A stretch of DNA of 64,000 nt from Streptomyces sp. MUM 203J (GTDB lineage: Bacteria > Actinomycetota > Actinomycetes > Streptomycetales > Streptomycetaceae): positions 1-64,000 of the forward strand of contig NZ_JADWYO010000017.1 of the NCBI RefSeq assembly GCF_022414595.1, in the 5' to 3' direction. The notes beneath the pieces were generated by a model, which saw nothing but the letters and a program-made list of their open reading frames with translations, did no database searches and was not told the DNA's origin. Both the position numbers and the translations under genes were made by a program. How positions within the stretch are numbered: the stretch's first letter is position 1; each line of letters begins with the position of its first letter. Below, piece by piece: positions 10,711 to 59,636 of this stretch.

Positions 10711-11937
10711 TCACGGGTTGACGCCGTCGTACTGGAGGACCCGGTAGGGGGCCTGGTGCACCTGGCCGTTCCACTGGGACACGATCAGCGTCAGGGAGGT
10801 GGCGCTCGCGCTGCCGGGGTGGATGTATCCGCCGTAGAGCGTGGGGAGCTGGGGCTTTCCCCAGTGGTCCGGCGGCCAGGCGGCGTTTCCGACGATCTGG
10901 GTCCGCGGCCCGGTCCAGGTGGCGTCCGGGCGGGGCGCGGTCCGGGTGCGGATCGAGTAGTCGGTGGTGTCGAAGTAGCTCATGCAGTACGTGCCGCCGA
11001 TCCGCTTCACCGAGAACTCCCCGATGTGGTTGCCGGTGAGGACCGGGGACGGCGGGGCGGCCTGGGTCCACTGCCAGCGGTTGTCCAGGAAGGCCCAGTT
11101 CTGCTGGGCGCCGAAGTTCCCGGCGCGGAAGTCCTGCGGCCGGATGCGGAAGAGCTGGATGGCGCCGTGGTCGGCGGTGTTGCGGTGGGTGCCGTTCCAG
11201 CGCTTCGAGAAGATGTACAGCCAGCCGTCCGGGTCGATGCCCGCGAACGACCACATGCCGTACATGTTCTGGTTGGCGCCCTGGGTGTCCCCGGCCCAGT
11301 GGTAGGGGTAGTCCCGCCAGGTCACGCCGTAGTCGTCGGAGTAGGCGACACCGGACATCAGCGAACCGTCGTAGCCGGCGGGCGGGTCCCAGTCGGCCAC
11401 GGACGTGTACTGGATGTAGGTGCGTCCGCCGAACTCGATGCAGTCGTTGGGGATACGGCTCACCTCGGAGCCGTGTCCGTTGTCGTGGTCGTGCCGGTAG
11501 TCGAACAGCTGGCGGGCCGCGCCCCCGGTGGGCATCGCCCAGGTGAAGGAGATGGGCGTGGCGCCCGAGGCGTCGAAGCGGTCCTGGTTCAGCATGACCG
11601 GGGAGCCGAGGTAGGGGTCCTGCTGGGCGCGGCCGGCCCAGGCGTCGCCGAAGACGTAACCCCAGGTGTTGTCGTGCACCCGGTGGTACGGGATGGCGAG
11701 GTCCCCGGACCCGAGGCCCTGCGCGCTCGCGGAGTCGCCGGGCTGTTCGCACAGGGGGGTGCCGGTCTGGCCGAGGGCGCGAGCGGCGGCTGCGTGGGCG
11801 GGCGTGGCGGTGGCCAGGGCGCCGAGGGTGCCGGTGGCGAGCGTGAGTCCGGCGCCCGCGCGGAGCAGGGACCGGCGGGTGAGGGCCGGGCGGGGCCCGT
11901 GATCGTCGGAGTGGTCCGGACGTACGGGATCGGTCAT
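10711..11937 (-). CDS. Tat-exported DUF4185 domain protein
   Basis: The 408-residue product has a twin-arginine signal (LTRRSLLRAG, then a hydrophobic core ending AHA). The mature domain matches DUF4185, a five-bladed beta-propeller-like fold related to glycosidase scaffolds, with elements such as NTWGYVFGDAW, IQYTSVADWD, WRDYPYHW and GGYIHP. A carbohydrate-binding or glycoside-cleaving role is plausible for the fold but unproved. The gene lies 14 nt after the esterase gene and 35 nt before the beta-lactamase-fold gene in one operon. Confidence 0.8.
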   Translation of the reverse strand: MTDPVRPDHSDDHGPRPALTRRSLLRAGAGLTLATGTLGALATATPAHAAAARALGQTGTPLCEQPGDSASAQGLGSGDLAIPYHRVHDNTWGYVFGDAWAGRAQQDPYLGSPVMLNQDRFDASGATPISFTWAMPTGGAARQLFDYRHDHDNGHGSEVSRIPNDCIEFGGRTYIQYTSVADWDPPAGYDGSLMSGVAYSDDYGVTWRDYPYHWAGDTQGANQNMYGMWSFAGIDPDGWLYIFSKRWNGTHRNTADHGAIQLFRIRPQDFRAGNFGAQQNWAFLDNRWQWTQAAPPSPVLTGNHIGEFSVKRIGGTYCMSYFDTTDYSIRTRTAPRPDATWTGPRTQIVGNAAWPPDHWGKPQLPTLYGGYIHPGSASATSLTLIVSQWNGQVHQAPYRVLQYDGVNP

Positions 11938-11951
11938 GGCGGCAGATGTCC

Positions 11952-13091
11952 TCAGGGTCGGTGGGCGGCGGTGAAGGCGGTCTCCAGGCGCGGGACGTAG
12001 TCCGCCAGGGCGGGGGCCCAGCAGCCGTAGTTGTGGCCGCCGTTGCAACTCGGCGCGAGAGAGGCGCCGTTGCCGTAGTCGACGAGGCGGCTGGGGATGC
12101 CGAGTCCGTCCAGACGGGTCTTGACGGTCCTGGAGGCGACGGCGGTGTGCGCGTCGATGAGGTCGTTGTCGCCGGTGTAGAGGGTGATGGCGGTGCGGGA
12201 CAGCCTGGCGAGGTTGGCGGGGGCCGCCGGGTCCACCGCCCTCCAGACGCGGTCTGCGTCGAGCACCGGGTACGGGGAGCCGAAGACGGCGTCGCTGTCG
12301 ACGTACGGGCCGTAGTCGGGGCACCGTCCGGAGCCTGGACCGGAGCCGGACGAACCGGAGGAGCTGCTCGCCGCGCACCATGCGCCGGGCAGGTTCAGCT
12401 CCGTCGCGAGCACCGTCGCGCGGATCTGCCACATGCCGAAGTCGATGCCGCCGGACAGTGCGGCGGCGTGGCCGAACAGGTCGGGACGGGCCTCGGCGTA
12501 GTGGAGGGAGCCGAAACCGCCCATGGACAGGCCGACGACGGCCCGGTGGGCGCGGTCGGGGAGCGTGCGGAGGTTGGCGTCGATGAACGGGACCACCTGG
12601 GTGAGGTGGAAGGTCTCCCAGTTGGCGGCGCCCTCGGCGGTGTTCTGCAGGAGCCAGTCGGCGTACCAGCCCTTGAGGCCGCCGTCCGGGGCGACGGTGA
12701 TCATCGCGTCGGAGCGGAGGGCGGGGACCGCTGCCGCGTCGTCGGCGGTGCCGCCGCCTCCGTGCAGGAAGTACGTGACGGGCCAGCGGCGTCCGGGCTC
12801 GGCGGCGTAGCCGCGAGGGAGGAGGATCCGGATCTTGTGCGGGCCGGACAGCTGGGCGGTGGTGACGGTGAGTGTGAAGTCGGTGGGCGAGTGGACCTCG
12901 GTGGCGCCCGGGACCTGGGTCAGGCCGTGGCTGTCGGTGAACTCGGGGACGGAGGAGGAGGTGGAGGGGGTCGAGGGGGCGCTTTGGGCCGTGGCTGGGG
13001 CCGCCCCGGTCATGGCCACGGCGGCGGCCGTGGCCGCGAGGGCCGCGCGGAACCGGGCGCGGACGCCGGCGCCGAACCGGGATGTGGGCAT
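11952..13091 (-). CDS. Secreted esterase, antigen 85/esterase D family
   Basis: The product has 379 residues, with a signal peptide to about residue 36 and an alpha/beta hydrolase domain of the putative esterase family (PF00756). The nucleophile is Ser189 in GLSMGG, the oxyanion and strand elements appear as VTYFLHGGGG, an acid residue sits in LYTGDNDL, and the C-terminal histidine lies in GGHNYGCW. A Ser/Gly-rich insert (about 240-257, ending in a CPDYGPY turn) is a low-complexity loop. It is the first gene of the exported three-gene operon. The substrate is unknown; acylated sugars or cell-wall esters are typical for the family. Confidence 0.85.
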   Translation of the reverse strand: MPTSRFGAGVRARFRAALAATAAAVAMTGAAPATAQSAPSTPSTSSSVPEFTDSHGLTQVPGATEVHSPTDFTLTVTTAQLSGPHKIRILLPRGYAAEPGRRWPVTYFLHGGGGTADDAAAVPALRSDAMITVAPDGGLKGWYADWLLQNTAEGAANWETFHLTQVVPFIDANLRTLPDRAHRAVVGLSMGGFGSLHYAEARPDLFGHAAALSGGIDFGMWQIRATVLATELNLPGAWCAASSSSGSSGSGPGSGRCPDYGPYVDSDAVFGSPYPVLDADRVWRAVDPAAPANLARLSRTAITLYTGDNDLIDAHTAVASRTVKTRLDGLGIPSRLVDYGNGASLAPSCNGGHNYGCWAPALADYVPRLETAFTAAHRP

Positions 13092-13339
13092 GCGTGGGTG
13101 TCCCTTCGGCTGGACGGTCTGTGAAGTGCCGCACAGGGCAGGGGTGATGGGGCGGAATCGGGTGTCGCGGCTGGGGACGGCGGGTTGGATGAACCTACGG
13201 ATGGCGATGGCGGGACGCGCTCCGGCGGACGCCAGTCAAGCGGGTCCCGAGCCGGGTGTCGCGCCCCGCTGACCTGGATGGACAAAGCCCGGACAACGGC
13301 CGGACAAAGCCGTGGGGACCGACGAGGGAGGAGCCAGAG

Positions 13340-14383
13340 GTGGGACGCCAGGAACAGCCGCTCGACCCCGGGCAGGGGCCGCTGGCCGCGTTCGCGCACG
13401 GGCTGCGGGAGCTGCGGCGCGAGGCGGGCAGCCCGCCCTACCGCCGGCTCGCGGCGCACGCCCACTACTCGGCGTCGACGCTGGCCGCCGCCGCATCGGG
13501 GCAGCGGCTGCCGAGCGCGGCGGTGCTGGCCGCGTTCGTGACGGCCTGCGGGGGCGACCCGGAGGAGTGGGAGCGGCGACGGCTCGACACGCACCGGGCG
13601 CTGATGGCGGACGCGGTGGGTGACGGCGAACCTGAGGGGGACGGACCGGCCGCCTCGGGGGACGCTGCCGCACCCGCGCCCCCGCCCGCCCCGGAGGTCC
13701 CGGTCCGGGCGGCCCGGCGGGAGGCCGGGCAGCAGGCCGTGCGGCTCCTCGCGGTCGCCGCGGCCGTGGTGTCCCTCGCGGCGCTGGTGCCGGGAGATGT
13801 GGCCGCGCGGAAGGCCGGCCACGAGCGGCAGGAGTCACGGTCCCGGAACGACGCCCGGTGGTTACGCCCCGGCAGCGGCGTCCCCGACCGCTACCGCCCG
13901 CTCATCATCGAGGCGGGCACCCGGTGCGACGTCCCGGAGGTCACCCCCGCGCTCATCGCCGCGATCCTCGACGCGGAGAGCGGGTTCGACCCGGACCTGA
14001 GCGACCCGGCCGAGGACGAGTACGGCATCGCCCGCTGGACGCCCCGCGTGCTGCGCTACTACCTGCCGCCGGACCGTCAGGCGACCGTCCCGGTACCGCC
14101 GTTCAGCCCCGAGGACTCCATCCCGGCCGTCGGCCGCATGCTCTGCGCCATCGCGCCCCTGGTGGAAGGCGTCCCCGGCGACCCGTCGCTCAACCTGGCC
14201 GCGTCCTACCGCGCGTCGACCTGGGTCGTGCAGCGCCAGGACCCCGCCGAACTCCGGTCTCTCCAGCCGTACCTGGACCGGGTGCGGGCGGGGCTGGAGC
14301 GGTACGGGTGTGTCAGTTCCAGCGCACCAGGGACGCCTCGGGCCGGATCCACTCCGCGGGAGGCGGGGTGTCCAGGTCGGTGA
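13340..14383 (+). CDS. HTH-transmembrane-lytic transglycosylase fusion (TTA codon)
   Basis: The 347-residue product starts at GTG with GGGAGGAG upstream. An N-terminal helix-turn-helix-like region (about 14-85, of the kind found in streptomycete membrane regulators) is followed by an acidic Pro/Ala linker and one membrane helix (about 134-155). An extracytoplasmic SLT-like domain comes last, with Glu213 in DAESGFDP as the expected catalytic acid. It would cut peptidoglycan outside while an HTH domain faces inside. Codon 175 is TTA (13862-13864), so translation should depend on the bldA tRNA. Its last 71 nt overlap the 3' end of the convergent lipoprotein gene. Confidence 0.7.
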   Translation: MGRQEQPLDPGQGPLAAFAHGLRELRREAGSPPYRRLAAHAHYSASTLAAAASGQRLPSAAVLAAFVTACGGDPEEWERRRLDTHRALMADAVGDGEPEGDGPAASGDAAAPAPPPAPEVPVRAARREAGQQAVRLLAVAAAVVSLAALVPGDVAARKAGHERQESRSRNDARWLRPGSGVPDRYRPLIIEAGTRCDVPEVTPALIAAILDAESGFDPDLSDPAEDEYGIARWTPRVLRYYLPPDRQATVPVPPFSPEDSIPAVGRMLCAIAPLVEGVPGDPSLNLAASYRASTWVVQRQDPAELRSLQPYLDRVRAGLERYGCVSSSAPGTPRAGSTPREAGCPGR

Positions 14384-15503
14384 TCTTCACCGGCTGGGCG
14401 CCGGGCTCGGCCAGGTCGGTGCGGAACAGGGCCCACCCGCCGGACTCGCCCTTGGAGAGGAAGGCGAGGGCCTGCCCGTCGGGGGACGGAACCGGGGAGG
14501 CGTTCTCCCTGTTGCTGTCCGGGATGAGGTCCACGGTCTTCTCGGCCCTCTCGTAGTCGGCCGAGAAGGTGATCTGCTGGAAGTCGCAGACGAGGGTGGT
14601 GGCGTCGCGCCAGAGGATCGGATCGCATTCGGGGCGCTCCTCGTCCAGCATGACGTCCAGGTCGTCGCTGACGATCTCCTCCAGGAGGGACTGCGGACCG
14701 GATGTGCCGTCGCGCCGCAGCCGCTCAAGGGCGAGGGGCGAGGCGAAGCGTGAGGTCGCGAAGACACCGTCCGCGCCGGGCGCGGCCAACGCGTCGACCC
14801 TGTCCAGGGCGAGCACCGCGGCGGCTGTGTCTGCGTCCTCGCGGAGCAGGTCGGGGATCTCGGCGAAGTCGACCTTCTTCTCCGTCGCGGCGCCCTTCCC
14901 GGGGTCGCGCGAGTAGACGGGGTCTTCGGACCGGACGTGCTCGGTGGCGCGGTGGTCGTACCAGAGACGCCCGGTGACCGGATGGAAGACCGCCACGGAC
15001 GTGGACGGGGGCTTGCTGAAGGCGTCCGGGTCGGGCGGCGCGATCTCGTTTCCGGTGCCGAGGTCGGCGACCGCGGCCCGGCCGCTGGAGAGGCGTTTGT
15101 GGTCGGGGAAGGCGACGCCTGCGACCTGGGTGAGGTCCTTGTTGAAACCGAGCCGTACGGGGATGCCGCCGGTGCTGTTGCCGTCGCAGCCCGTCGTCAC
15201 CCTGAAGCCCTCCGCCAGGCGGGTGGCGCGCTCGGCGACCAGGGTGCCGTCCTTCACCGCGTACGAGCGCAGGATGAGCGTCTGGAAGCCGGGGGCGTCG
15301 TAGCAGTACATGACCGTGACGGTCCCGGGCTGGGCGAGGGGTGCGTGCTTCGGGTCCTTGTCGGCGCCCTTCGTCGCCGCGGGCGCCACGCTCTCGTCCG
15401 CCGCCCCGCCCCCGGCGCCACCGCCGCTGCACGCGGCGAGCATCAGCGCGGCCCCCGCCGCCACACCTGCCTTGACCAGTCGTCGCCCCACGGCATCCCC
15501 CAT
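14313..15503 (-). CDS. Lipoprotein with predicted beta-propeller (TolB/WD40-like) domain
   Basis: The 396-residue product starts at ATG 15503; an upstream TTG is less likely. It has a signal with lipobox LAAC, a Gly/Ala-rich linker, and a mature domain with repeated strand-turn blocks such as SPDGQALAFLSKGESGGWALF and TLVCDFQQ, as in TolB-like propellers. It should be anchored outside the membrane as a binding or scaffold protein. The 3' end overlaps the convergent HTH-transglycosylase gene by 71 nt, so the two transcripts are antisense to each other there. Confidence 0.75.
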   Translation of the reverse strand: MGDAVGRRLVKAGVAAGAALMLAACSGGGAGGGAADESVAPAATKGADKDPKHAPLAQPGTVTVMYCYDAPGFQTLILRSYAVKDGTLVAERATRLAEGFRVTTGCDGNSTGGIPVRLGFNKDLTQVAGVAFPDHKRLSSGRAAVADLGTGNEIAPPDPDAFSKPPSTSVAVFHPVTGRLWYDHRATEHVRSEDPVYSRDPGKGAATEKKVDFAEIPDLLREDADTAAAVLALDRVDALAAPGADGVFATSRFASPLALERLRRDGTSGPQSLLEEIVSDDLDVMLDEERPECDPILWRDATTLVCDFQQITFSADYERAEKTVDLIPDSNRENASPVPSPDGQALAFLSKGESGGWALFRTDLAEPGAQPVKITDLDTPPPAEWIRPEASLVRWN

Positions 15504-15522
15504 ACAGACGAGTTGACGAGAA

Positions 15523-15963
15523 TCATTCAAACAGACCGGGGGTGCCCCCCATCACGCGGTACATGCCGATCGAGTCGTGCGTGGCCGTGTCCGCGAACCC
15601 GAACTTCTCGTACAGGTGGCGCGCCGGACCGTCCGCGATCAGCGACACGTACGCGGTCGCGGGCGCACGGCGCTCCAGCTCCTCCGTGAGCGCCGCCATG
15701 ATCCGCTTCCCGAGGCCCTTCCCCTGGTGCGCGGGATGGACGCAGATGTCGACGATCTGGAACGCGGTGCCGCCGTCCCCGATGATCCGGCCCATGCCGA
15801 CCGGCTCACCCTCGTGGTGGAGCACGACCCCGTGCCAGGTGTTCGGCAGCGCCCGCGCCGCGGCTTCCGGGTCCTTGTCGGACAGCCCGGCGTCGGTGCG
15901 GAGCCGCCGGAACACGTCCACGGACGGCACACCGACACACAGTTCGTAAGGGTCGTTATCCAT
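15523..15963 (-). CDS. GNAT family N-acetyltransferase
   Basis: The 146-residue single-domain GCN5-related acetyltransferase has the acetyl-CoA pyrophosphate loop HPAHQGKGLGKRIM (motif A), a preceding beta strand FQIVDICV, and the C-terminal LYEKFGFADT element. The acceptor amine is unknown. It starts at ATG close to a divergent promoter region shared with the SH3 protein, and its stop lies 20 nt before the start of the lipoprotein gene on the same strand, so the two may be co-transcribed. Confidence 0.85.
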   Translation of the reverse strand: MDNDPYELCVGVPSVDVFRRLRTDAGLSDKDPEAAARALPNTWHGVVLHHEGEPVGMGRIIGDGGTAFQIVDICVHPAHQGKGLGKRIMAALTEELERRAPATAYVSLIADGPARHLYEKFGFADTATHDSIGMYRVMGGTPGLFE

Positions 15964-17003: not shown

Positions 17004-17954
17004 TCACCTCCCGGGGCCCGGGGCCCGGTTCAGCTCCCGCCCCAGCAGCGCCCTCGCGACCGTCACCTGGACCGGGTCCAGAGCCTGCTCCCCGTCCTCG
17101 ACACCCACAGGGCGTCCTGGAGGACCCGGCCCGGTGTCCGGCCGGCAGCCCGGCACCGGTCCGGGGAGAGCGCCTCCGCCAGGAGGCCGAAGCGGTGGAG
17201 CACCGCCCGCTCCGCGTCACCCGTCGCCGCCGCGTCGCCCCAGAAGTCCCGCAGCGCGGGCAGCAGTTCGAAGCCCGGGTCACCGGACAGCGGCTCGGGG
17301 GCGATCGCCAGCCAGGGCTCGCGCTCCCCGGCGAGGACATTGTCGTGGTGCAGGTCCCAGTGGAGCAGCCGGTCTCCCGGCTCGTCCAGCAGCTCCGCCA
17401 CGGCGGACGCGCAGGCCCGCAGCAGCCGCCGTCCGGCGGGGTCGTGCAGGGCCCGCACGGCCCGGGGAGCCTCGTCCAGCATCGCCGCCGCCACCTCCGA
17501 CAGGGACCGCAGGCCCGGCGGCGCGGGCACGGCGGACAGCCGGGCCAGCAGTCCGGTGAGGACCCGCAGGGCCGCCCGCCGGTCCGGCAGCGACGACAAC
17601 GGACGTGCCGGGTCCCGGCGTTCGAGCAGGTGGGTGGCGGTCTCGTCGTCGTGGGCCAGCAGCCGGACCGCACCGTTTCCGTCCCAGGCGCACAGACTCG
17701 CCGCCGCGCTCGCCGTCTCCTCGCGCCGGCGCTGGAGTTTCAGGGCGGCGGGAGTGCCGTCGGCCCGGAGCACGGGCAGGACCAGGGGAGGCCGTGCCGT
17801 ACGCTGCGGGTCCGTCAGGGCGCAGGTCCCAGCGGTCCAGGAACCGGGCGCCCAGGCGGGGCAGTGCGGCGAGCCAGGCGCGTTCTTCGGGGCCGTGCGC
17901 GCCGTAGGAGGCGGCGAAGGCGGCGGGGACGTCGACAGCCGGTGTCGAGGGCAT
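17004..17954 (-). pseudogene. Aminoglycoside phosphotransferase-like gene with two frameshifts
   Basis: The N-terminus MPSTPAVDVPAAFAASYG follows a good AAGGAG site at 17954 and reads to AAYGTAS. Homology then continues in a different frame as LVLPVLRADGTPAALKLQ through the kinase loop LLHWDLHHDNVLAG to DALWV. After that the original frame resumes as EDGEQALDPVQVTVARALL and stops at 17004-17006. The breaks correspond to one extra base in the G4 run at 17785-17788 and two extra bases at the ACAC of 17101-17104. The family is APH(6)/hydroxyurea phosphotransferase-like, and the intact gene would encode about 315 residues. True inactivation and sequence error are both possible. Confidence 0.75.
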
Positions 17955-58421: not shown

Positions 58422-59636
58422 ATGAGCCAGGACTCCGCCGCACCGGAGACCGGACGGAAACTGTCCGGACGCCGCCGTCGCGAGGTCGTCGCCGTCATGC
58501 TGTTCAGCGGCGGCCCCATCTTCGAGAGTTCCATCCCACTCTCGGTGTTCGGGATCGACCGCCAGGACGCCGGGGTGCCGCGCTATCGGCTGCTGGTCTG
58601 CGCGGGCGAGGACGGCCCGCTGCGCACGACCGGGGGAATGGAACTCTCCGCGCCGTACGGCCTGGAGGCAATCAGCAGAGCGGGCACCGTCGTCGTGCCG
58701 GCCTGGCGGTCGATCACCTCGCCACCACCGGCCGAGGCGCTCGACGCGCTGCGCCGCGCCCACGAGGAAGGCGCCCGTATCGTCGGCCTGTGCACCGGCG
58801 CCTTCGTGCTCGCCGCCGCCGGCTTACTGGACGGACGGCCCGCGACCACGCACTGGATGTACGCGCCGACGCTGGCGAAGCGCTATCCGTCGGTCCATGT
58901 GGACCCGCGGGAGCTGTTCGTCGACGACGGGGACGTGCTGACGTCAGCGGGCACGGCGGCCGGAATCGATCTCTGTCTGCACATCGTGCGGACCGACCAC
59001 GGCGCGGAGGCGGCCGGGGCGCTGGCCCGCAGGCTCGTCGTCCCGCCACGCCGCACCGGAGGCCAGGAGCGTTACCTCGACCGGTCGTTGCCGGAGGAGA
59101 TCGGCGCCGACCCGCTGGCCGAGGTCGTCGCGTGGGCGCTGGAGCACCTCCACGAACAGTTCGACGTGGAGACGCTGGCGGCGCGTGCCTACATGTCGCG
59201 GCGGACGTTCGACCGCCGCTTCCGCTCGCTGACCGGCAGCGCGCCGCTCCAGTGGCTGATCACCCAGCGGGTGCTCCAGGCGCAGCGGCTGCTGGAGACG
59301 TCCGACTACTCGGTGGACGAGGTCGCGGGGCGCTGCGGCTTCCGCTCGCCGGTTGCGCTGCGCGGGCACTTCCGGCGTCAGCTCGGCTCGTCGCCCGCGG
59401 CGTACCGGGCGGCCTACCGGGCACGACGGCCCCAGACCGACAGCGCGCCGCCGGTGTCCGACCCGGTGGTGCCGGCACAGGGCCAGGGCCCGGGCTCCGG
59501 TCTGCGGCGCCCCCCGGCGGGCGCGGGTGCCGCGTCCGCGCTGGGCGGCGGCGAGCCGGGCAAGCCGCACGGCGACGCGTTCCCGCCCGGCCGGGCGGCG
59601 GCGACCACGCTGCCGGGCCAGCGGAGCGCGCCGTAG
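58422..59636 (+). CDS. adpA: AdpA (BldH) master regulator of differentiation, with TTA codon
   Basis: The 404-residue product has an N-terminal DJ-1/PfpI-like dimerisation domain (about 22-200, including LCTGAFVLAAAGLLDG and TSAGTAAGIDLCLHI). The C-terminal AraC/XylS DNA-binding domain has two HTH units (about 235-330, with DVETLAARAYMSRRTFDRRFR and YSVDEVAGRCGFRSPVALRGHFRRQ). Codon 135 (58824-58826) is TTA, so translation needs the bldA tRNA-Leu, the hallmark of adpA. The C-terminal 60 residues are a low-complexity tail. It controls aerial growth, secreted enzymes and antibiotics. orn follows after a terminator. Confidence 0.95.
   Translation: MSQDSAAPETGRKLSGRRRREVVAVMLFSGGPIFESSIPLSVFGIDRQDAGVPRYRLLVCAGEDGPLRTTGGMELSAPYGLEAISRAGTVVVPAWRSITSPPPAEALDALRRAHEEGARIVGLCTGAFVLAAAGLLDGRPATTHWMYAPTLAKRYPSVHVDPRELFVDDGDVLTSAGTAAGIDLCLHIVRTDHGAEAAGALARRLVVPPRRTGGQERYLDRSLPEEIGADPLAEVVAWALEHLHEQFDVETLAARAYMSRRTFDRRFRSLTGSAPLQWLITQRVLQAQRLLETSDYSVDEVAGRCGFRSPVALRGHFRRQLGSSPAAYRAAYRARRPQTDSAPPVSDPVVPAQGQGPGSGLRRPPAGAGAASALGGGEPGKPHGDAFPPGRAAATTLPGQRSAP

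Follow-up and report, generated by a model that had tools for sequence, protein, structure and literature searches.

The gene at 13340..14383 (+ strand) in the 64,000-nucleotide stretch of Streptomyces sp. MUM 203J DNA analysed here (the window) encodes a single chain of 347 aa, in which a helix-turn-helix (HTH) domain, one predicted membrane helix (TM) and a lysozyme-like domain of the SLT fold follow each other. This architecture is conserved in 18 orthologs, phased direct repeats lie upstream of most of them, and genes for probably secreted enzymes are transcribed divergently. Based on these observations, we propose that the protein may act as a one-component regulator that is anchored in the membrane as a single chain. 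Through an outer domain that binds the wall, it would control its own gene and the secreted enzymes encoded divergently. We give this proposal slightly less than an even chance. The outer SLT-fold domain would bind, and perhaps slowly cut, wall glycan, and the ligand state would be relayed through the membrane helix to the inner domain. The HTH would then bind 11-bp repeats at its own promoter, possibly also a dyad, and this binding would set the expression of its own gene and of the divergent enzymes. DNA binding, the signal and the direction of control are what we infer from the sequences; the proposal draws on the repeats in 15 of 19 upstream regions and their empty controls, on the DUF4185 neighbourhood and co-occurrence, on the outer domain being fused to kinases elsewhere, and on the dyad in 14 of 19 upstream regions.

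The GTG start codon is supported by the orthologs, since all 18 full-length proteins have an xGR(Q/R)E motif in common as their start. The initial annotation had described a single chain with an HTH, a membrane helix and a transglycosylase domain, and Pfam, hydropathy and structure models agree with one HTH, one predicted membrane helix and one SLT-fold domain, an architecture that recurs in 18 distinct full-length orthologs. The membrane helix is predicted at residues 133-151 (13736..13792, +), the top 19-residue hydropathy window with a mean of 2.21. Best windows between 1.54 and 2.28 were obtained for the 8 orthologs tested. A Pro/Ala-rich linker is also part of the chain. An AlphaFold2 model of the full protein, built on an 18-row alignment, had a mean pLDDT of 77.9. 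The helices from 14 to 93 were well modelled (mean pLDDT 88-97 for the blocks covering residues 11 to 90), and a second folded domain extended from about 180 to 322, with weaker values (pLDDT 69-80) around 221-260. The predicted topology places the HTH inside the cell and the SLT domain outside. Cys70, Cys196 and Cys269 were invariant among the first eight orthologs aligned. A Foldseek search with the full model gave nothing below E 0.001, the best entries being ClgR and MltF. The whole protein had no match among PDB sequences, and NCBIfam returned nothing above cut-off for the window protein and no match for two orthologs.

A scan of named genomes yielded seven full-length orthologs (by label, five from Streptomyces and two from Kitasatospora), together with a copy cut by a contig end (L039, Streptomyces bambusae) that was used for upstream counts only. 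With an eight-row profile, 2 of 150 genomes from the genus of the window were found to encode a full-length protein, and 30 more of these 150 genomes matched only beyond about position 92, within the C-terminal half. Among 200 genomes of the family, full-length proteins were present in 13 (3 of the own genus, 9 of another genus and 1 of a third). Repeated loci were counted once (L033/L034 recur as G285/G338, and L032 as G070), which left 18 distinct full-length orthologs including the window. Genes in all loci were called by a custom script and not by a published gene finder. Carriage on a plasmid or phage was considered and dismissed, as no near plasmid match was found. At the protein level 119 plasmid records matched, none of them over 80% of the query, and the one phage match, to the outer domain, was weak.

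The 248 nt between the HTH-TM-SLT gene and its divergent neighbour contain a dyad, a TTGGATG block and three direct repeats. The repeats GGACAAAGCCC, GGACAACGGCC and GGACAAAGCCG are arranged with an exact pitch of 11 bp (13280..13312, +) and form a candidate operator of the HTH-TM-SLT gene. The TTGGATG block (13185..13191) is conserved in the comparison of ortholog upstream regions. The dyad CTGTGAAGTGCCGCACAG (13119..13136) is Crp/GlxR-like and may be a site from which the divergent enzyme genes are controlled. For the counts, 170 nt ahead of each of 19 orthologs were used (18 full-length genes and L039). In 15 of the 19 regions, GGACA occurred two or more times with an exact spacing of 11 bp, and the spacing between close GGACA words was 11 in 28 of 35 cases. 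As a control, the regions were shuffled with preserved dinucleotides. Over 1000 rounds, a mean of 0.014 loci carried an 11-bp GGACA pair, with a maximum of 1. The pair was found in 0 of 12 kinase-SLT genes whose start lay inside the fetched loci. Neither the pair nor the dyad was found in any of 4 loci that have DUF4185 without the HTH-SLT gene (4 of 15 such genomes).

Two loci, L125 and L128, have no DUF4185 gene and no dyad and keep the array. Thus the array follows the HTH-SLT gene. Close to the start codon, both loci have two further GGACA words, again with a spacing of 11 bp. Several results count against a regulatory role. The arrays of L035 and L126 are degenerate, as judged by eye, and L036 and L129 have no GGACA array upstream. 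L129 keeps the dyad and DUF4185, perhaps a case of natural promoter replacement. In the own genome, the three-copy repeat pattern with up to 1 mismatch gave one match, at this locus. In five other genomes, 4 of the 16 matches listed were at the ortholog and 12 outside the locus, and for the genome of L037 none of the matches listed was at the ortholog locus. The three-copy pattern is therefore not unique everywhere, which was again counted against a regulator. Moreover, a pitch of 11 bp is usual for sites of SARP- or OmpR-type regulators, and the repeats also fit such proteins, a further point on the same side. The dyad was present in 14 of 19 upstream regions. When the own genome was searched with up to 2 mismatches, 13 sites were found (control, 7), and this site was the one exact match. 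GTG-N8-CAC is the form quoted for Crp/GlxR sites in a passage of PMC10033298. The dyad has this form and could thus reasonably be taken for a Crp site instead, which was likewise counted against a regulator.

Three enzyme genes are encoded divergently in the window. These are an esterase (PF00756, probably secreted; 11952..13091, -), a DUF4185/GH183-family protein with a twin-arginine-like signal seen by eye (PF13810, E 1e-62; 10711..11937, -) and a serine hydrolase of the beta-lactamase family (PF00144; 9521..10675, -). The best PDB match of the esterase was protein PS1 with E 1.5e-14; a generic esterase followed closely (1.9e-13), and Ag85C was weaker (2.6e-7). Therefore, the mycolate link of the esterase is only a lead. 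Of 17 full-length orthologs that could be assessed, 12 have DUF4185 among their first three divergent genes (window, L031-L034, L122-L124, L126 and L129-L131). L127 lies at a contig edge and was left out of the neighbour counts; its genome has DUF4185 at the end of another contig. With the window DUF4185 as query, tblastn recovered the gene in the other 11 loci. It was absent from L035, L036, L037, L125 and L128 within the fetched 8-11 kb, which counts against a regulatory role. The first recognised divergent gene was NlpC/P60 in L035, xylose-isomerase-like with ThuA in L036, a beta-lactamase in L037 and a ricin-type lectin in L128; no divergent gene was recognised in L125. LGFP-repeat proteins were found in the L032, L129, L130 and L131 loci. 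A 287-aa protein with a signal-like start is encoded ahead of the esterase and DUF4185 genes at L126:3956-4819 and L132:6443-7306. The two genomes are related, and only that of L126 has the HTH-SLT gene; the L126 protein had no Pfam match. The window also encodes an APH(6)/hydroxyurea-type kinase family protein at 17063-17773 (-; PF04655, E 3.9e-33).

Nine aligned DUF4185 proteins were 75-89% identical to that of the window, and the profile of ortholog DUF4185 proteins matched the solved endo-alpha-D-arabinanases 8ic1 and 8hhv. D79 and D98 were invariant in 9 of 9 aligned proteins, as sequence positions only, with a spacing of 19 compared to 18 between D170 and D188 that a passage of PMC10115798 gives for DgGH4185b. 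In the sections consulted of PMC10115798 and PMC10509167, DUF4185 is equated with GH183, an endo-D-arabinofuranase that acts on mycobacterial arabinogalactan and lipoarabinomannan. By its DUF4185 domain, the protein of 10711-11937 would be a member of the GH183 family with a predicted endo-D-arabinanase activity. D-arabinan is a polymer of mycolic-acid bacteria, and its synthesis is not known from streptomycetes. The DUF4185 clade (E up to 1e-100) was present in 26 of 200 family genomes. It occurred in 11 of 13 genomes with the HTH-SLT gene versus 15 of 187 without it (Fisher P 1.3e-9, ignoring kinship). Of the 13, 9 belong to one genus, and this, like the disregard of kinship, was counted against a regulator. 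Both counts refer to the same 200 genomes, as judged from shared identifiers.

The SLT (lysozyme-like) domain is predicted outside the cell and covers residues 180-322 (13877..14305, +), as delimited by models and by homology to the C-termini of kinase-SLT proteins. The Pfam SLT match (PF01464) was sub-threshold, with 12 bits versus a cut-off of 21.3 and E 0.16. Residues 177-325 of the model aligned with MltC 4cfo at Z 15.2 (rmsd 2.9, 144 residues, VIA-align), and MltE and Slt ranked below. Glu213 (13976..13978, +; ES motif) had been singled out before as the residue to change in a muralytic assay. It lies at the catalytic Glu position of the SLT fold and is kept in 18 of 18 orthologs. Arg232 (14033..14035, +) belongs to a GIAR motif, part of the GIARWTP of the orthologs, and is likewise found in 18 of 18. 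The Asn of AYN is replaced by Arg in 16 of 18 orthologs, by Glu in L130 and by Gln in L131. The canonical SLT-NlpC/P60 paralog of the same genome has both GIAQ and AYN. The fold and the catalytic Glu are common to the window domain and the lytic transglycosylases Slt, MltC and MltE, whereas these enzymes have GIAQ/GLMQ and AYN and the window orthologs have GIAR and mostly AYR. Because the canonical glutamine and asparagine are absent, the domain is filed as an SLT lytic transglycosylase (GH23-type) by fold only, and with these changes its enzymatic activity is uncertain.

The conserved Glu213 and the Z score of 15.2 would also suit a protein that is only a membrane-tethered wall hydrolase. In that case the transglycosylase would be active, the HTH would be a relic or tether from an nSTAND1-type pool, and the control region would be served by Crp and a SARP/OmpR-type factor. 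The GTG-N8-CAC form of the dyad (as quoted in part of PMC10033298) fits such an arrangement. The usual 11-bp pitch of SARP/OmpR sites fits it as well. We regard this explanation as unlikely, as the HTH positions are constrained in the orthologs, the exchanges of GIAQ to GIAR in 18 of 18 and of AYN to AYR in 16 of 18 alter canonical motifs, and the repeat array of the own genome is the only copy of its pattern there.

The same outer domain is found elsewhere fused to Ser/Thr kinases; in L084, for instance, Pkinase matched with E 2.9e-34. Such Streptomyces kinase-SLT proteins, for example L084:2983-4548, L085:4491-6014 and L038:2915-4480, share ESxFD and GIARWTP with the window protein and have the kinase in place of the HTH. 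A hydrophobic stretch precedes their SLT-like domain, as seen by eye. The kinase-SLT genes of L084 and L085 are flanked by genes that we take, from their N-terminal sequence, to be folD-like and purH-like. A kinase motif was present in 20 of the 21 distinct partial-match loci examined. In a tree of SLT domains with 30 rows, 8 HTH fusions were separated from 20 kinase fusions by a single branch (support 90/79). The kinase-SLT rows were picked by motif, so that their common GIARWTP is partly a product of selection, and L009, an SLT row in which no kinase was detected, was assigned to neither group. The occurrence of one outer domain with either an HTH or a Ser/Thr kinase suits a receptor domain with exchangeable outputs.

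The XRE/HTH_31 domain is a five-helix domain of residues 14-93 (13379..13618, +), as supported by Pfam, models and VIA. HTH_31 (PF13560) matched residues 18-78 with E 1.8e-8 and 35 bits, above the cut-off of 27. Structure prediction, which the initial annotation had proposed for the HTH, yielded a five-helix XRE fold in the full model and in a model of the domain alone (mean pLDDT 81.0, blocks 82-91). An absence of the HTH from homologues had been named as an argument against that annotation; its sequence is kept in 18 full-length homologues, and HTH positions are under constraint across the orthologs. The top fold match of the HTH alone was RodZ 2wus (Z 9.8, rmsd 1.9, 79 residues, VIA), and with the full model Z was 10.1. 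The XRE regulator 5woq (Z 9.1) ties RodZ within 1 Z, and HigA 7csy reached Z 8.8. By fold, the HTH is thus as near to RodZ as to DNA-binding XRE proteins, which counts against a regulator. The same applies to the putative recognition helix (45-53), which is small and Ala-rich, and to the near-neutral charge of the HTH (11 K/R and 10 D/E in residues 1-93). As to sequence-specific DNA binding by the HTH, the upstream DNA provides candidate sites only.

RodZ works by protein contact and, as in the window protein, has an inner XRE-fold HTH, one membrane helix and an outer domain. The outer domain of the window protein differs in being SLT-like. The near-neutral HTH, the Ala-rich recognition helix and the RodZ-like fold keep alive a role as RodZ-like scaffold, which we judge to be rather unlikely. 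Here, the HTH would contact a cytoplasmic protein of the cytoskeleton or polar machinery, and the outer domain, with its catalytic Glu kept in 18 of 18, would trim or grip peptidoglycan. Transcription would not be involved, and the upstream repeats and the dyad would belong to other regulators. Against this stand the tie between RodZ and an XRE regulator, the repeats that track the HTH-SLT gene and the co-occurrence of an arabinanase-family gene. In addition, Pfam up to E 1 reported HTH_31, HTH_3 and SLT only for the window protein and no RodZ family match.

For a regulatory function, the closest layout is offered by one-component regulators of the CadC/ToxR type, in which an inner domain of DNA-binding type, one membrane helix and an outer sensor-like domain are joined in one chain. 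The window protein has the same order, in that its HTH is followed by one membrane helix and then by another domain, the sidedness being predicted. In contrast to the winged helix (OmpR-type) of CadC/ToxR, it has an XRE-type HTH and an SLT-fold outer domain. By analogy, it may work like a regulator of this type, and it is no member of that class. Apart from the HTH-TM-SLT proteins, the HTH half was found mostly on nSTAND1-WD40 proteins (among those scanned; L044 is nSTAND1 only and L064 is HTH only). These proteins with N-terminal HTH_31 belong to the same HTH subfamily, with 44-59% identity to the window N-terminus (21 aligned), and those scanned have an NTPase and a propeller where the window protein has its membrane helix and wall domain. 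An 11-bp GGACA pair was found in 0 of 28 upstream regions of these HTH paralogs. That similar HTHs occur without such repeats was counted against a regulatory role.

A different explanation had been offered initially, namely that wall remodelling could be timed by bldA and that the 3' end of the gene could be subject to antisense interference. The underlying features were both recovered. A TTA is present at codon 175 (13862..13864, +; sequence and ortholog alignment), and a convergent lipoprotein-like ORF (14313-15530, PD40 match) ends inside the gene, which results in a 71-nt antisense overlap at 14313..14383. One TTA each was found in 6 of 18 orthologs, at codons 175 (window), 161, 172, 31, 25 and 22. 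These are five different places, as only the window (175) and L032 (172) share an aligned Leu. A lack of TTA conservation had been named as an argument against the idea, and 12 of 18 orthologs have no TTA. Among the first eight orthologs, 4 had a TTA, and the chance of three or more was 0.0008 to 0.046 with five background rates. This impression was weakened when 28 other genes with this HTH (L040-L067) served as control, of which 14 contain TTA, four of them at codon 21. Per Leu codon, the orthologs have 6 of 599 TTA versus 23 of 3101 in the 28 HTH paralogs (Fisher P 0.45). The ortholog rate was above a window background of 1 of 1525 (P 0.003). A background of 30 of 188 genes was set aside in favour of a filtered one, as it contained the paralogs and low-GC3 calls. 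TTA is frequent in genes of this HTH class, so that its presence is hardly informative for the HTH-TM-SLT gene. Of 54 called genes in the window, 2 contain TTA, the other being 58422-59636 (+) at codon 135.

TTA codons in the divergent neighbours of L032, L034, L037 and L128 can be added in favour of bldA control. The mostly differing positions and a rate no higher than that of HTH paralogs speak against a developmental link, and on the 18 orthologs and the paralog control TTA was rejected as a conserved developmental mark. The last 24 residues of the protein, where the overlap lies, are not conserved, and the convergent neighbour varies between loci. L034 and L123 have short convergent overlaps of 19 and 15 nt, respectively, with other neighbours. 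The mutual interference suggested from the overlap was therefore rejected, and bldA-timed remodelling as a whole appears very improbable.

Membrane one-component regulators are known as a kind; for the pairing of HTH with SLT and its link to a GH183 cluster, the literature searched gave no precedent. Among the matches listed, no paper on an HTH-membrane-SLT protein was found by titles and abstract openings, which is absence there and not proof, and none of the papers on DUF4185 and Streptomyces concerned an HTH-SLT link, as judged by title. A bolder interpretation follows from the enzyme families beside the gene and from the question of what streptomycetes recognise in co-cultures with mycolic-acid bacteria, which is treated as open in section 5 of the review PMC12187902 and in parts of PMC9068768. 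The protein could be a wall-contact receptor of some Streptomycetaceae for the envelope of mycolic-acid bacteria, a speculation that we hold to be quite unlikely. The SLT-like domain would grip wall fragments of the neighbour and the HTH would fire. GH183 arabinanase would then be released with a PS1/Ag85-like esterase, LGFP-repeat proteins or a serine hydrolase, and together they would open the arabinogalactan-mycolate layer. If true, one form of contact sensing between streptomycetes and mycolic-acid bacteria would gain a named candidate. The contact response in general could not be explained in this way, as only 2 of the 150 genomes from the genus of the window were found to have the gene.

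In summary, one outer wall domain is combined with two exchangeable partners, an HTH or a Ser/Thr kinase, and the HTH form is linked to a cluster of secreted enzymes, the key one of which comes from a D-arabinan-cutting family. If the protein is indeed a regulator, it would represent a compact route from a wall signal to a promoter without a kinase or an anti-sigma factor, and it would be a candidate sensor of neighbouring bacteria.
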